Assembly: GCA_008080565.1 (NCBI GenBank)
Contig: VIKE01000022.1
Span: 17,025-81,024 of the forward strand
From: Rhodocyclaceae bacterium
Lineage (GTDB): Bacteria; Pseudomonadota; Gammaproteobacteria; Burkholderiales; Rhodocyclaceae
Reading direction: 5' to 3'
DNA length: 64,000 bases
In this document: positions 1 to 7,534 of the stretch, one piece after another
Layout: each line of letters starts with the position of its first letter
Position numbering within the stretch: the stretch's first letter is position 1
The notes under the pieces: model-generated
Told to the model about the DNA's origin: nothing
The model's input: the letters and a program-made list of their open reading frames with translations, nothing else
Databases searched by the model: none
Position numbers and translations under genes: made by a program

Positions 1-100
1 CCCCGGGTAATGGCCGGTTCTCAAGGAATCGTTCCCATGAACTGGCGACGGCTGACTCGTCGCCGATTCGGGGAATAAGCAGATTGCTGTTGGGGGTCAC
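1..100 (-). CDS. Partial N-terminus of AcoR/AcxR-like sigma-54 activator
   Basis: The minus strand is open from a GTG at 100 to the window edge and is absent from the ORF track. It reads MTPNSNLLIPRIGDESAV followed by ASSWERFLENRPLPG. The SWERxLE pattern close to the N-terminus is typical of AcoR/AcxR-type enhancer-binding proteins, which activate sigma-54 promoters in response to a small metabolite. The gene is divergent from acxABC, whose promoter is of sigma-54 type, and this fits a dedicated activator. The start is uncertain: GTG at 100 is my choice, and a TTG about 11 codons upstream is also in frame before a stop. The GAF, AAA+ and helix-turn-helix parts lie outside the window, so the family call rests on about 33 residues. 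Confidence 0.5.
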   Translation of the reverse strand, partial: MTPNSNLLIPRIGDESAVASSWERFLENRPLPG

Positions 101-236
101 ATTGGGCTCGTGGCGGGCTCCGGGGTATTCACCGTAAAACAATAAATTAACTTAATCATAACCGTAGCCGACGATGCTGTTCAAGTCAATAAAGTCGTTG
201 TGTATCAATGGCTTGTGCGGCGCAACAAAAACTTGT

Positions 237-261
237 GAACTGTCCGGAATCCGGACAGTTC
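237..261. promoter_or_regulatory. Palindromic upstream activator site for acx promoter
   Basis: This is a perfect inverted repeat with arms GAACTGTCCGGA and TCCGGACAGTTC around a single central A. It lies about 140 bp upstream of the sigma-54 promoter of acxA and between the divergent regulator fragment and the operon. Position and symmetry fit a binding site for a dimeric enhancer-binding protein. The stretch 101-455 holds no gene apart from this site and the promoter; an AT-rich tract at about 137-165 could be a bend or IHF region, but I cannot support that. Confidence 0.65.
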
Positions 262-386
262 GAAATTGGCGTCGTTATTCAGGACGTTTTTCGCTTGTTC
301 GTCGGACAGCTGCTGTTTTCTACAAATTTTCGCCAAGTTGATGATTCGTCGTGGGAATTCAGTGAGTCCCCCGCTTTTTCGAGCCC

Positions 387-401
387 TGGCCCGGCCCTTG
401 C
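387..401 (+). promoter_or_regulatory. Sigma-54 (-24/-12) promoter of acx operon
   Basis: TGGCCCG-GCCC-TTGC matches the consensus TGGCACG-N4-TTGC at 10 of 11 defined positions, with the invariant GG and GC separated by exactly 10 nt. The predicted transcription start is near 413, about 43 nt before the acxA ATG. Acetone carboxylase operons in other bacteria are known to be sigma-54 dependent, so sequence and context agree. Confidence 0.8.
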
Positions 402-455
402 CATTAAGTCAGCGTGGGATCACTCACCACGACACACCAATGACAGGAGACAAAC

Positions 456-2603
456 ATGGAAACTCAGCAGTCAAACGTACAGGTGATGGGAATCGATGCC
501 GGCGGCACGATGACCGATACCTTCTTTGTCCGGGCCGACGGTCGTTTCGTCGTCGGCAAGGCGCAAAGCAATCCCGGCGACGAGTCGCTCGCCATCTATA
601 ACTCTTCCGTTGATGCGCTCGAGCACTGGGGCCGCAACGTTGACGACGTCTATCCGGAACTGGCGACCTGCGTCTACTCCGGAACGGCAATGCTCAACCG
701 CATCCTGATGCGCAAGGGCCTTGATGTCGGCCTGATCTGCAACAAGGGTTTCGAGCAGATCCACTCGATGGGTCGCGCCTTGCAGAGCTACCTGGGCTAC
801 GCCCTGGAAGATCGCATCCACCTCAACACCCACCGTTACGACGAGCCGCTGGTGCCGGTTTCCCGCACCCGCGGCGTCACCGAGCGGACCGACGTGCAGG
901 GCAAGATTGTCATTCCGCTGCGCGAAGAAGAAGTACGCCAGGCCACCCGCGAGCTGGTCGAGGCCGGTTCCCAGGCCATCGTCATCTGCCTGCTGCAATC
1001 GCACAAGAACGAACTTAGCGAACAGCGGGCGCGCGATCTGGTGCGTGACGAACTGAAAAAGCTCAAGTCGGACATCCCGGTCTTCGCCTCGGTGGATTAC
1101 TACCCGTCGCGCAAGGAAAGCCACCGGATGAACACCACCATCCTAGAAGCCTATGGCGCCGAACCGTCGCGCCAGACGCTGAAGAAGGTCAGTGACCGCT
1201 TCAAGAAGCATGGTGCCAAGTTCGACCTGCGCGTCATGGCGACGCACGGCGGCACGATCAGCTGGAAGGCCAAGGAACTGGCCCGCACCATCGTCTCCGG
1301 CCCGATTGGCGGGGTCATCGGCTCCAAATTGCTCGGCGAATACCTCGGTGACGAAAACATCGCCTGCTCCGACATCGGCGGCACCAGTTTCGACGTGGCG
1401 CTGATCACCAAGGGCAACTTCGCCATCAAGTCCGACCCCGACATGGCTCGTCTGGTCCTCTCGCTGCCGCTGGTGGCGATGGATTCGGTCGGTGCCGGCG
1501 CCGGCAGCTTCGTCCGCCTCGACCCCTACAGCAAATCGATCAAGCTCGGCCCGGACAGCGCCGGCTACCGCGTCGGTACCTGCTGGCCGGAAAGCGGCCT
1601 CGACACCGTTTCCGTCTCCGACTGCCACGTCGTGCTCGGCTACCTCAATCCGCAGAACTTCCTCGGCGGCGCCATCAAGCTCGACGTACAACGGGCCCGC
1701 GACCACATCAAGGCGCAGATCGCCGATCCGCTCGGCCTGTCGGTCGAAGATGCGGCGGCCGGCGTCATCGAACTGCTCGATCTGACGCTGTCCGAATACC
1801 TGCGTGCCAACATCAGCGCCAAGGGCTACAACCCGGCCGAATTCACCTGCTTCTCCTACGGCGGCGCCGGGCCGGTGCATACCTATGGCTACACCGAAGG
1901 CGTCGGCTTCAAGGACGTCGTGGTACCGGCCTGGGCGGCCGGCTTCTCGGCTTTCGGCTGCGCCTGTGCCGACTTCGAGTACCGCTACGACAAATCGGTC
2001 GATCTCGGCGTCGCCCAGTTTGCCAGCGACGAGCAGAAAGCGGCGGCCTGCGCGACCCTGCAGGAAGCCTGGGGCGAGTTGGCGGTCAAGGTCATCGACG
2101 AGTTCGTCATCAATGGCTACAAGCCGGAAGACGTGCTGCTGATCCCCGGCTACAAGATGCAGTACATGGGCCAACTCAACGACCTCGAAATCGTCTCGCC
2201 GGTGACCAGCGCGGCCACTGCCGCTGACTGGCAGCAAATCATCGAGTCCTTCGAGAACACCTATGGCCGCGTCTACGCCAATTCGGCACGCTCGCCGGAA
2301 CTGGGCTTCTCGGTCACCGGCGCCATCCTGCGCGGCATGGTCGTGACCCAGAAACCGGTGCTGCCGGAAGACGCCGATGCCGGGCCGACGCCGCCCAAGG
2401 AAGCCTATCTCGGCACGCGTCCGTTCTACCGCCACAAGAAGTGGGTCGAGGCTGCGCTGTGGAAGATGGAGTCGCTGAAGGCCGGCAACCACATCGTCGG
2501 CCCGGCCATCATCGAATCCGACGCGACGACCTTCGTCGTCCCCGACGGCTTCGAAACCACGATCGACAAGCATCGCCTGTTCCATCTCAAAGAAGTCAAG
2601 TGA
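456..2603 (+). CDS. acxA: Acetone carboxylase beta subunit (HyuA-like)
   Basis: The 715-aa product belongs to the hydantoinase A / ATP-grasp-like ASKHA family and matches the beta subunit of acetone carboxylase, which makes acetoacetate from acetone and bicarbonate at the expense of ATP in the cytoplasm. Visible nucleotide-binding motifs are GIDAGGT (about residue 12), DIGGTSFD (about 306) and SYGGAGP (about 467). Length is the usual one of about 715 aa. An AGGAG-type ribosome site precedes the ATG. It is the first gene of acxABC, downstream of a sigma-54 promoter, and is followed by acxB after 11 nt. The order beta-alpha-gamma is the one known from Xanthobacter and relatives. Confidence 0.93.
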   Translation: METQQSNVQVMGIDAGGTMTDTFFVRADGRFVVGKAQSNPGDESLAIYNSSVDALEHWGRNVDDVYPELATCVYSGTAMLNRILMRKGLDVGLICNKGFEQIHSMGRALQSYLGYALEDRIHLNTHRYDEPLVPVSRTRGVTERTDVQGKIVIPLREEEVRQATRELVEAGSQAIVICLLQSHKNELSEQRARDLVRDELKKLKSDIPVFASVDYYPSRKESHRMNTTILEAYGAEPSRQTLKKVSDRFKKHGAKFDLRVMATHGGTISWKAKELARTIVSGPIGGVIGSKLLGEYLGDENIACSDIGGTSFDVALITKGNFAIKSDPDMARLVLSLPLVAMDSVGAGAGSFVRLDPYSKSIKLGPDSAGYRVGTCWPESGLDTVSVSDCHVVLGYLNPQNFLGGAIKLDVQRARDHIKAQIADPLGLSVEDAAAGVIELLDLTLSEYLRANISAKGYNPAEFTCFSYGGAGPVHTYGYTEGVGFKDVVVPAWAAGFSAFGCACADFEYRYDKSVDLGVAQFASDEQKAAACATLQEAWGELAVKVIDEFVINGYKPEDVLLIPGYKMQYMGQLNDLEIVSPVTSAATAADWQQIIESFENTYGRVYANSARSPELGFSVTGAILRGMVVTQKPVLPEDADAGPTPPKEAYLGTRPFYRHKKWVEAALWKMESLKAGNHIVGPAIIESDATTFVVPDGFETTIDKHRLFHLKEVK

Positions 2604-2614
2604 GGAGACCCACC

Positions 2615-4939
2615 ATGAATATGATGAGCACAAAAGAAATCGGCATTGGCAACCTGCTCGAAAGCGGCATGACGCTCAAACAGCACCGCGACGCCATCCT
2701 CGAGCGCACCCAGTCGACGGGTTACTACAACGGCCTGGAAAAACTCGAATTCCGTGACAGCGACCCGATCCGCTACGAGAAGCTGTTCTCCAAGCTGCGC
2801 GGCGGTCTGGTCCATGCCCGGGAAACGGCGAAAAAGATTGCCGCCAGCCCCATCGTCGAGCAGGAAGGCGAACTCTGCTTCACGCTCTACAACGCCGCTG
2901 GCGACTGCATCCTGACCTCGACCGGGATCATCATCCACGTCGGCACCATGGGCGCGGCGATCAAGTACATGATCGAGAACAATTGGGAAGCCAACCCGAC
3001 GATCAACCCCGGCGACATGTTCACGACCAATGACTGCGCCATCGGCAACGTGCATCCCTGCGACATCGCCACCATCGTGCCGATCTTCTGGGCCGGCAAG
3101 CTGATCGGCTGGGTCGGCGGCGTCACCCACGTCATCGATACCGGCGCCGTGACGCCGGGTTCGATGTCTACTGGCCAGACGCAACGTTTCGGTGACGGCT
3201 ACATGATCACCTGCCGCAAGACCGGGATCAACGACGAGCCGCTGCGCGACTGGCTGCATGAGTCGCAGCGTTCGGTACGCACGCCGAAATACTGGATTCT
3301 CGACGAAAAGACCCGCATCGCCGGTTGCCACATGATCCGCGAACTGGTCGAAGAGGTGATCCGGGCCGATGGCCTGGAGGCTTACGACAAGTTCTCGCAG
3401 GAAGTCATCGAAGAAGGCCGTCGCGGCCTGATGAGCCGGATCAAGGCAATGACCCTGCCGGGCAAATATCGCAAGGTTTCCTTTGTCGATGTGCCGTTCA
3501 AGCACGAGGACATCCAGGTTTCCAACGCCTTCGCCAAGCTCGACTCGATCATGCACTCGCCGGTCGAGATGACCATCAAGCCGGACGGCAAGTGGCGTCT
3601 CGACTTCGAAGGCGCCAGCCGCTGGGGCTGGCATACCTTCAATGCCCACCAGGTGGCCTTCACCTCGGGCATCTGGGTCATGATGTCGCAGACGCTGGTG
3701 CCGACCCAGCGCATCAACGACGGCGCCTACTTCGCCACCGAGTTCCACCTGCCCAAGGGCACCTGGTGCAACCCGGACGACCGGCGCACCGGTCATGCCT
3801 ATGCCTGGCACTTCCTGGTCTCGGGCTGGGCGGCGCTGTGGCGCGGCCTTAGCCAGTCCTACTTCAGCCGCGGCTATCTCGAAGAGGTCAATGCCGGCAA
3901 CGCCAACACCTCCAACTGGCTGCAGGGCGGCGGTATCAACCAGGACGGCGAGATCCACGCGGTCAACAGCTTCGAGGCTTCGTCCTGCGGTACCGGTGCC
4001 TGCGCCGTCAAGGACGGCCTGAACCACGCCGCCGCCATCTGGAACCCGGAAGGCGACATGGGCGACATCGAGATCTGGGAAATGGCCGAGCCGCTGCTGT
4101 ACCTGGGGCGCAACGTCAAATCCAACTCCGGCGGCTACGGCAAGTACCGTGGCGGCTGTGGTTTCGAAACCCTGCGCATGGTCTGGAACGCCCAGGACTG
4201 GACGATGTTCTTCATGGGCAACGGCTACATGAACAGCGACTGGGGCATGATGGGCGGCTACCCTTCGGCCACCGGCTACCGTTTCGAAGCGCACAACACC
4301 GGCCTCAAGGAGCGCATCGCCATCGGCGACTCGCTGCCGCTGGGCGGCGACATCGATCCCAGTGCGCCCGACTACGAGCGCCACCTCGACGCAACGGCCG
4401 TGGTCAAGCGCGACAAGCAGTGCATGACGACCGAGGACTGCTATGACAACCATGACCTCTATCTGAACTACCTGCGCGGCGGCCCGGGCTTTGGCGATCC
4501 GATCGATCGTGAAATCAGTGCCATCGAGAACGACCTCAACCAGAAGTTCCTGCTGCCGGAATTCGCCGAAAAGGTCTATGGCGCGGTGTTCACCCAGGAT
4601 GCCAAGGGTGTGTTCAGCATCGATGCCGAATTGACCAAGCAGCGCCGTACGGAAATCCGCAAGGAACGCCTGGCCCGTGCCCTGCCGACCCGCGAGTGGA
4701 TGAAGGAAGAGCGCGAACGGATCATCAACAAGCATGCGGCGGTGCAGGTCCAGCACATGTTCGCTACCAGCTTCGGACTGTCCGAGAAGTTCACCAAGGA
4801 GTTCAAGGATTTCTGGAGCCTGCCGGCCGACTGGCAATTGCTCGAAGACGAACTGGGCGTGCCGACCTACGGCTCCAAGCACCGCATGGATCTCTCGCTG
4901 ATGCCCGACGTGAAGACCGTCGTTCAGGTCGAAGAGTAA
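2615..4939 (+). CDS. acxB: Acetone carboxylase alpha subunit (HyuB-like)
   Basis: The 774-aa product is a hydantoinase B-type protein, the alpha subunit of acetone carboxylase that houses the manganese site. The track ORF begins earlier, but the ATG at 2615 follows GAGGAGACCC and gives the family length. Candidate Mn ligands are visible as NVHPCD (His147, Asp150) and GVTHVID (His172). They are offset by exactly three residues from the ligands I recall for the Xanthobacter enzyme (His150, Asp153, His175). The gene lies 11 nt after acxA and 36 nt before acxC. Confidence 0.93.
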   Translation: MNMMSTKEIGIGNLLESGMTLKQHRDAILERTQSTGYYNGLEKLEFRDSDPIRYEKLFSKLRGGLVHARETAKKIAASPIVEQEGELCFTLYNAAGDCILTSTGIIIHVGTMGAAIKYMIENNWEANPTINPGDMFTTNDCAIGNVHPCDIATIVPIFWAGKLIGWVGGVTHVIDTGAVTPGSMSTGQTQRFGDGYMITCRKTGINDEPLRDWLHESQRSVRTPKYWILDEKTRIAGCHMIRELVEEVIRADGLEAYDKFSQEVIEEGRRGLMSRIKAMTLPGKYRKVSFVDVPFKHEDIQVSNAFAKLDSIMHSPVEMTIKPDGKWRLDFEGASRWGWHTFNAHQVAFTSGIWVMMSQTLVPTQRINDGAYFATEFHLPKGTWCNPDDRRTGHAYAWHFLVSGWAALWRGLSQSYFSRGYLEEVNAGNANTSNWLQGGGINQDGEIHAVNSFEASSCGTGACAVKDGLNHAAAIWNPEGDMGDIEIWEMAEPLLYLGRNVKSNSGGYGKYRGGCGFETLRMVWNAQDWTMFFMGNGYMNSDWGMMGGYPSATGYRFEAHNTGLKERIAIGDSLPLGGDIDPSAPDYERHLDATAVVKRDKQCMTTEDCYDNHDLYLNYLRGGPGFGDPIDREISAIENDLNQKFLLPEFAEKVYGAVFTQDAKGVFSIDAELTKQRRTEIRKERLARALPTREWMKEERERIINKHAAVQVQHMFATSFGLSEKFTKEFKDFWSLPADWQLLEDELGVPTYGSKHRMDLSLMPDVKTVVQVEE

Positions 4940-4975: not shown

Positions 4976-5479
4976 ATGTCATATACCAATGAACAGGTTG
5001 CACATCTGGTCGAAGGCTCGCTGGACTGGGAAACGACCTTCCGCATGCTGTCGATGCCCAAGGACAACAGCCGCTTCGAGCAGTACCTCGCGGCGCTGCA
5101 GGCCAAGGTCGGCTTCAAGGATCGCATCGTCCTGCCGCTGGCGCCGCACATGTACATCGTGCAGTCGGCCAAGACCAAGCAGTGGCTCATCAAGTGCGAC
5201 TGCGGCCACGAGTTCTGCGACTACAAGGAGAACTGGAAGCTGCATGCCTCGATCTACGTGCGCGACACCGAAGAGGCGATGACCGAGGTGTACCCGAAGC
5301 TCATGGCGCCGGATACCCAATGGCAGGTCTATCGCGAGTACTACTGCCCGAGCTGCGGCACGCTGCATGACGTCGAGGCGCCGACCCCGTGGTACCCGGT
5401 GATCCACGACTTCGAACCTGACATCGAGGCCTTCTACAAGGAATGGGTGCATCTGCCGGTGCCTGAACGGGTTGATTAA
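4976..5479 (+). CDS. acxC: Acetone carboxylase gamma subunit
   Basis: This 167-aa small subunit completes the (alpha beta gamma)2 acetone carboxylase. It carries two cysteine clusters, KCDCGHEFC and YCPSCG, arranged like a zinc-type site, as expected for the gamma subunit. An AAGGAGACAAAA ribosome site precedes the ATG. A strong hairpin follows the stop codon, separating the carboxylase genes from the CoA-transferase gene and possibly setting different mRNA levels for the two parts. Confidence 0.92.
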   Translation: MSYTNEQVAHLVEGSLDWETTFRMLSMPKDNSRFEQYLAALQAKVGFKDRIVLPLAPHMYIVQSAKTKQWLIKCDCGHEFCDYKENWKLHASIYVRDTEEAMTEVYPKLMAPDTQWQVYREYYCPSCGTLHDVEAPTPWYPVIHDFEPDIEAFYKEWVHLPVPERVD

Positions 5480-5551: not shown

Positions 5552-6943
5552 ATGAACAAGGTTTATGCAACGAGCGAGGCCGCATTGGATGGCCTGCTTT
5601 TCGACGGCATGACCGTCGCCGCCGGCGGCTTCGGCCTGTGCGGTATTCCGGAGAATTTGATCGACGGCCTGCTGCGCGCCGGCACGAGCGATCTGACCAT
5701 CGTCGGCAACAATGCCGGCGTCGACGATTTCGGCATGGGGCCGCTGCTCAAGACGCGGCAGGTCAAGAAGGTCGTCGCGTCGTACGTCGGCGAGAACAAG
5801 GAGTTCGAACGCCAGGTGCTGGCCGGCGAACTGGAGCTCGAACTGGTGCCGCAGGGCACCCTGGCCGAACGTCTGCGCGCTGGCGGGGCTGGCATTCCGG
5901 GTTTCTACACGCGGACTGCCTTTGGCACCCGATTGGCCGAAGGCAAGGAAACCCGCCAATTCGACGACCAGGAATACGTACTTGAACCGGCCATCCGGGC
6001 CGACGTGGCCATCGTCAAGGCCTGGAAGGGCGACCATGCCGGCAATCTGGTTTTCCGCAAGACGGCGCGCAATTTCAACCCGATGATCGCCACCTGTGGC
6101 CGGGTCACGGTGGCCGAAGTCGAGGAACTGGTCGCGCCGGGCGAACTTGACCCGGACCAGATCCACACGCCGGGCATTTATGTGGACCGCATCATTCAGG
6201 GCGCCGGCTATCAGAAACGCATCGAGTTCCGCACCACGGCCGGCGGCGCGACGCCGGGCAAGCAGGACCCGCTGCGCGAACGGATGGCCCGGCGGGCGGC
6301 GCAGGAATTGCGCAGCGGCTATTACGTCAATCTCGGCATCGGCATCCCGACGCTGGTCGCCAACTACATTCCCGAAGGCATGCACGTCACGCTGCAGTCG
6401 GAAAACGGCCTGCTCGGCATCGGCCCCTTTCCCGGCAGCGAAGATGTCGATGCCGACCTGATCAACGCCGGCAAGCAGACCATCACGAGCATTCCCGGCA
6501 GCAGTTTCTTTTCCAGCGCCGATTCCTTCGCGATGATCCGCGGCGGCCACATCGACCTGTCCATCCTTGGCGGTCTGGAGGTTTCCGAAAACGGTGACCT
6601 GGCCAACTGGATGGTGCCCGGCAAGATGGTCAAGGGGCCGGGCGGGGCGATGGACCTGGTGTCGGGTGTCGGGCGCGTCATCGTCCTGATGGAGCACACG
6701 GCCAAGGACGGGGCGCCGAAGATTCTGCCGAACTGCAGCCTGCCGCTGACCGGCAAGGGCGTGGTGGACATGATCATCACTGACCTGTGCGTGTTCACTG
6801 TCAATGCAGGGGGCGGCCTGACCTTGAGCGAACTGCACCCCGGCGTTTCGGTAGACGAAGTCAGGGCGAAAACAGCTTGCAGCTTCTCCGTGTCGCCGGG
6901 CCTCAGCGCGCGCCATGCCACGGAGCTTGCTACCGTCTCATGA
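5552..6943 (+). CDS. Fused 3-oxoacid CoA-transferase (A and B subunits in one chain)
   Basis: The 463-aa protein joins the A half of a succinyl-CoA:3-ketoacid CoA-transferase (residues 1 to about 230, with [13 protein letters not shown] and a GNNAGVDD segment) to the B half (about 245-460, with [13 protein letters not shown]). The B half carries [10 protein letters not shown], whose Glu is the expected covalent-CoA residue. Bacterial enzymes are usually two polypeptides; this resembles the mitochondrial fused form. In context it would transfer CoA to acetoacetate made by acetone carboxylase, giving acetoacetyl-CoA for thiolysis. Its stop overlaps the next start (ATGA). The acyl-CoA donor cannot be read from sequence. 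Confidence 0.88.
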
Positions 6944-7158
6944 AGGCCGATGCTGCCACGGCGGGCGGTGGCCTGCCGTGGCTCGGCAATTCGCGTGAAA
7001 CGATAGATCTGGTCGGCAAGCTGTGGGATATTGAGTGCCACCATTTACTCGGGAAACTGACCCGGGCCGAGTACCGGCGCGCCCTTGTGGCGCTGCGCGG
7101 CGACTCGGAAAGATGGCGCTCGCCAACTGCCAACTCAAGGAGAAAGATCGATGACTGA
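6940..7158 (+). CDS. 72-aa hypothetical protein, coupled to CoA-transferase
   Basis: The ATG at 6940 overlaps the CoA-transferase stop in an ATGA arrangement, and the ORF ends 8 nt inside the next gene, so it is probably translated by coupling. The middle ([21 protein letters not shown], beginning near residue 20) looks like a charged/hydrophobic helix pair; there is no signal peptide or membrane segment. I do not recognise a family. The tight overlap on both sides is the main support that it is real. Confidence 0.5.
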
Positions 7159-7534
7159 TGCCTATATCGAAGGGCTTGAAGTGCGCCGACAGGTCATGGG
7201 CGACGAGTTCGTCGACAAGGCTTTTGCCAATGCCACGGAATTCACCCGACCCCTGCAGGATTTCATTACCGCCAACGCCTGGGGTTCCGTCTGGTGCCGC
7301 AGCGGCATTGATCTGAAAACACGCAGCATGATCACCATCGCCATGCTCACGGCCCTGGGGCGGCAACACGAATTGCGCGGGCATGTCCGGGGGGCGCTCA
7401 ATAACGGCGCATCCGCCGCGGAAATTCAGGAAATCCTCCTGCACGCTGCTGTCTATTGCGGCGTGCCGCTGGCCGCCGATGCCTTTCGGACGGCAGAGCC
7501 CATCCTTGCCGAGCATGCGTTGACCAGCTCTTGA
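7151..7534 (+). CDS. Carboxymuconolactone decarboxylase family protein
   Basis: The 127-aa product has the PcaC/CMD fold pattern (KTRSMITIAMLTALGR, ELRGHVRGALNNG, EILLHAAVYCGVP). The ATG at 7151 is chosen over the track start because CAAGGAGAAAG precedes it and the family start is restored. Many CMD-family proteins are not true decarboxylases. There is no beta-ketoadipate pathway nearby, and the CxxC pair of AhpD-type peroxidases is absent. Its place at the end of the acx operon suggests a role in acetone or acetoacetate metabolism, but that is inference. Confidence 0.8.
   Translation: MTDAYIEGLEVRRQVMGDEFVDKAFANATEFTRPLQDFITANAWGSVWCRSGIDLKTRSMITIAMLTALGRQHELRGHVRGALNNGASAAEIQEILLHAAVYCGVPLAADAFRTAEPILAEHALTSS

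Follow-up and report, generated by a model that had tools for sequence, protein, structure and literature searches.

The first 401 nucleotides of the window, i.e., the whole 64,000-nucleotide stretch of Rhodocyclaceae bacterium DNA that was analysed (G000:C95:17025–81024, with window position 1 corresponding to L002:8001), very likely form a divergent control region in which the activator AcxR and a sigma-54 promoter serve acetone catabolism. The first-pass annotation had described an activator gene, a palindrome, and a sigma-54 promoter as the complete control region of the acetone operon. These three components stood up to the analysis, but completeness did not: a second activator site (UAS2), an IHF-type site, a sigma-70 promoter of acxR, and a PhaR box had been missed.

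The genes on the plus strand encode the beta (456–2603), alpha (2615–4939, Hydantoinase_B), and gamma (4976–5479, PF08882) subunits of acetone carboxylase, followed by a fused 3-oxoacid CoA-transferase (5552–6943) that likely activates acetoacetate. Since the beta subunit fits the acetone carboxylase structures (PDB 5m45/5svb, ~1140 bits) far better than acetophenone carboxylase (340 bits), the acx genes encode a true acetone carboxylase. A ribosome binding site, GGAG (446–449, plus strand), precedes the beta-subunit gene and is kept in the alignment of homologues. An inverted repeat, GTGGG-ATCA-CTCAC (414–427, plus strand), lies where the 5′ end of the acx mRNA is predicted and is perhaps a 5′ stabilising hairpin. 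Most homologues have a repeat at an equal offset, often in the form GTGGG-N4-CCCAC. Downstream of the CoA-transferase gene, a gene at 7151–7534 encodes a carboxymuconolactone decarboxylase-family protein, which scores above the NCBIfam PcaC cut-off.

The 5′ end of acxR occupies positions 1–100 on the minus strand. Extension into the genome showed that this frame, open at the left edge of the window, belongs to one continuous frame (L002:6115–8142); the gene itself runs from a GTG start codon (100..98) past the window edge to L002:6115 (G000:C95:15139–17124). Because the ATG of the Paraburkholderia homologues falls at the alignment position of GTG 100, acxR is taken to start there, giving a protein of 661 residues, and TTG 142 was ruled out as the start. 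AcxR contains GAF (2e-13), Sigma54_activat (1e-65), AAA_lid_14, and HTH_8 (1e-9, the C-terminal Fis-type HTH) domains of Pfam, and its translation includes the GAFTGA motif. Thus, the AcoR/AcxR-like frame proposed from its N-terminus alone turned out to be a full GAF/AAA+/Fis-HTH activator, with both the AAA+ and the HTH domain present beyond the window edge, where the first-pass annotation had advised looking for them. AcoR-type acetoin activators are likewise large GAF, AAA+, and Fis-HTH proteins that need no sensor kinase; they share their domain build with AcxR, whereas AcoR serves acetoin catabolism. The NCBIfam matches shown included no model for either AcoR or AcxR. The identity of the gene as acxR is supported by the full EBP domain set, by 64.6% identity to a protein encoded on the acx-bearing replicon of Cupriavidus metallidurans CH34, and by its position divergent from genuine acetone carboxylase genes, including that of the PF08882 gamma subunit.

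A sigma-70 promoter of acxR is predicted at 161–189 on the minus strand, with a −35 element TTGACT (189..184), a spacer of 17 bp, a −10 element TACGGT (166..161), and a start near 154. The corresponding pattern, TTGACN-N16-18-TANNNT, was found in 35 of 38 acxR loci versus 0.5% of shuffles. On the opposite strand, the sigma-54 −24/−12 promoter TGGCCCGgcccTTGCC (387–402, plus strand) shows the 10/11 match to TGGCACG-N4-TTGC that had been reported for it; the end noted earlier, 401, drops the last base. All 39 AcxR-type loci (the window, its homologues, and L007) have a sigma-54 promoter upstream of the beta-subunit gene. Counting from the −12 element predicts an acx start at ~413. Between the upstream activator sites and this promoter lies an IHF-type site, AATCATCAACTTG (334–346, minus strand), with one mismatch to WATCARNNNNTTR. 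Around −120 relative to the start of the beta-subunit gene, an exact IHF-type site occurs in 15 of the 39 loci versus 0.4% of shuffles, and one with at most one mismatch, as in the window, in 28 versus 8%; in the other 11 it is unrecognisable.

The proposed AcxR operator, UAS1, is GAACTGTCCGGA-A-TCCGGACAGTTC at 237–261. It is indeed the perfect 12+12 bp palindrome previously claimed, with arms matching at 12 of 12 positions, and is located 136 bp from the acxR GTG. With up to three mismatches allowed, 200 dinucleotide shuffles of the surrounding 17 kb contained no match. For comparison, 80 loci were fetched by relatives of the beta subunit, and acxR homologues were then located in them. In a strict search, TGTCCGG-N3-CCGGACA recurred in Dechloromonas- and Zoogloea-type loci, at about −215 relative to the start of the beta-subunit gene. 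An operator matrix gave scores of at least 20 in 37 of the 38 loci that have a divergent AcxR (at least 52% identity, the window locus counted) and in none of 47 loci without one, nor in any of 1900 shuffles or 38 reversed sequences; the loci are related by descent, so that these counts are of non-independent events, and the matrix was trained on the same sites, which makes individual scores circular but leaves the strict pattern and the AcxR-less loci free of circularity. Because the site accompanies AcxR and is missing where AcxR is missing, the palindrome belongs with the activator and not with the enzyme genes. Judged by this distribution, UAS1 very probably serves as the enhancer site for AcxR. 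In the loci without AcxR, an adjacent activator was sought among ten upstream frames (L024), which yielded only an MFS transporter and no sigma-54 activator.

Upstream of the sigma-54 promoter, the operator lies at a distance of ~150 bp; it adjoins acxR instead where an inserted gene splits acxR from acx. Such a gene is frequent in Cupriavidus and Paraburkholderia, in which one strong site or pair adjoins acxR, and the split loci also keep a usually weaker pair at the ~150-bp position upstream of their sigma-54 promoter. In L058, L062, and L043 (~2500–3300), all from these genera, the small intervening gene appears LRAT/NC-like by eye and is flanked by AcxR sites on both sides. The genome of the window itself contains UAS1 and two places with three mismatches, about the number expected by chance, and a wider AcxR regulon was rejected since extra sites occur only at that level. 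No paper naming an AcxR operator was found among the papers searched.

A degenerate second AcxR site, UAS2 (CGTC-N8-GGACG, 266–290), has its centre 29 bp downstream of that of UAS1. Across 38 loci, +29 was the best of all offsets for a second site, with a mean score of −9.2 versus −40.2 (sd 5.3), i.e., approximately six standard deviations above the others. The alignment of Dechloromonas-like loci also points weakly to a possible third half-site, CGGACAG (303–309, plus strand).

The remaining element, the PhaR box CTTGTGCGGCGCAACAA at 210–226, agrees at 17 of 17 positions with YTKNTGCRNYGCANMAR, the PhaR palindrome deduced for Ralstonia eutropha (PMC12849132). It also resembles the R. eutropha phaP1 probe, which is bound by PhaR (PMC3570403). 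FNR and CRP sites were considered for the ATCAATG/TTGTGC block and set aside in favour of the PhaR reading, as neither matched by eye. The genome carries a phaR gene (PF05233, G000:C20) and 13 occurrences of the consensus, several of them away from PHB genes, versus 1 for a control pattern. The phaR gene has a box with at most one mismatch close upstream, as do four of the five phasin genes; the fifth itself sits downstream of another phasin gene. At the same threshold, boxes were present in 25 of 38 AcxR loci and 9 of 47 others, versus 0 of 85 reversed and 18 of 1700 shuffled sequences, and within the control region their density reached 9.8 per 10 kb, versus 0.05–0.67 elsewhere. With up to two mismatches, the box stands 50–52 bp from the acxR promoter in 29 of 38 AcxR loci, and this distance is kept even when extra UAS copies lie between the box and the strong UAS. 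On these grounds, we favour, with moderate confidence, the view that PhaR directly controls acetone catabolism in PHB-storing Betaproteobacteria by way of a conserved acxR-promoter box, so that acetone (via AcxR) and the carbon store (via PhaR) would both be inputs. No paper linking PhaR to acx was found.

Seven AcxR loci (L023, L054, L058, L065, and L091–L093) have no recognisable box at the expected place. Five of their seven genomes were tested: four have phaR, and the remaining one, a MAG, had no match to it. Loss of the box was not seen to be coupled to loss of phaR: phaR is present in 15 of 16 genomes tested, box-less ones included, and the sole phaR-less genome is a 2.7-Mb MAG. In five Aromatoleum/Azoarcus loci without an adjacent AcxR (L024, L025, L027, L049, and L039), two PhaR-like boxes lie around the sigma-54 promoter, with approximate positions of −160 and −105 relative to the beta-subunit gene. 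Near acxR, a near match to a PhaR-like box, TTGTGCAAAGCAGTA, lies at L002:5016–5030, in the gap that separates a LysR gene from a divergent gene for a membrane protein.

Relative to the predicted acxR start, the centre of the box in the window falls near −66. In R. eutropha, a predicted PhaR site ~70 bp upstream of the phaP3 start has been proposed as activating, whereas repression of phaP1 has been ascribed to PhaR sites at its −35 and −10 elements (PMC12849132). Because the position of the box resembles that of the phaP3 site, we lean towards an action of PhaR on acxR, maybe a positive one. The palindrome is common to the three promoters, but phaP1 and phaP3 are granule protein genes, whereas in the window the target would be the gene for an activator of acetone use. 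It is also conceivable, though rather doubtful, that the box is a simple repressor element through which PhaR blocks AcxR at UAS1 instead of acting on the acxR promoter. Only 10 bp separate the box from UAS1, and start-to-start distances are 23–27 bp in many loci, which would suit blocking; yet an extra UAS copy intervenes in L041, L043, L060, and L082, where the distance from the box to the acxR promoter is nevertheless kept. Less probable again is that AcxR/sigma-54 control is correctly described but that the TTGTGC-N3-GCARCA box is the site of another acxR regulator or belongs to the acxR promoter as an upstream element. The rigid spacing to that promoter and the absence of the box from some phaR-bearing genomes would suit this explanation, but the full-length match to the published palindrome, the likeness to the probe bound by PhaR, the equal boxes upstream of phaR and the phasin genes in the same genome, and the differently arranged boxes of some AcxR-less acx loci all argue for PhaR. 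Finally, that the palindrome is an operator for acxR autorepression rather than an acx enhancer is improbable, for although the strong copy stays by acxR in Cupriavidus and Paraburkholderia, the palindrome lies upstream of the acxR promoter and not over it, and in those loci site pairs are retained near −218/−188 relative to the acx start, as expected of an enhancer.

Under the preferred reading, with UAS1 as an acx enhancer and the box as a PhaR site, acxR would be transcribed from its own sigma-70 promoter at 161–189, and AcxR would sense acetone, a related ketone, or 2-propanol through its GAF-containing N-terminus. AcxR dimers would bind UAS1 and the weaker UAS2, approximately three helical turns apart. 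The AAA+ ring of AcxR would then assemble and, with the DNA bent at the IHF-type site, contact the sigma-54 polymerase at 387–402, driving the acx genes and the CoA-transferase gene from ~413. A PhaR dimer, titrated by PHB granules, would on balance be expected to bind at 210–226, so that PHB reserves may tune acxR expression or AcxR occupancy.

For C. metallidurans and Xanthobacter autotrophicus, control of acx by AcxR and sigma-54 has been published before. In C. metallidurans CH34, AcxR (Rmet_4104) is the divergent acx regulator and a sigma-54 promoter has been noted (PMC2864759), and, according to a personal communication cited in the same paper, both acetone and 2-propanol are inducers of ACX; the acx regulator system of X. 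autotrophicus Py2 (Sluis et al. 2002) is cited there as well. The CH34 acxRABC locus resembles that of the window in its divergent AcxR with GAFTGA and its intergenic sigma-54 promoter. The passages of PMC2864759 on the CH34 and Py2 systems mention neither an operator nor an IHF site or a PhaR box, whereas our comparison shows the CH34 locus to have the PhaR box, UAS1, the IHF-type site, and the sigma-54 promoter in the same order as the window. What is new here is the AcxR operator consensus TGTCCGG-N3-CCGGACA, its proposed use by two dimers 29 bp apart, and the conserved PhaR box.

The PhaR box suggests a storage-state input, by which carbon reserves would help decide whether acetone is used. 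Acetoacetate, the product formed from acetone, can by activation become acetoacetyl-CoA, the direct PHB precursor. The arrangement bears on making PHB from acetone or 2-propanol and on the construction of acetone biosensors.
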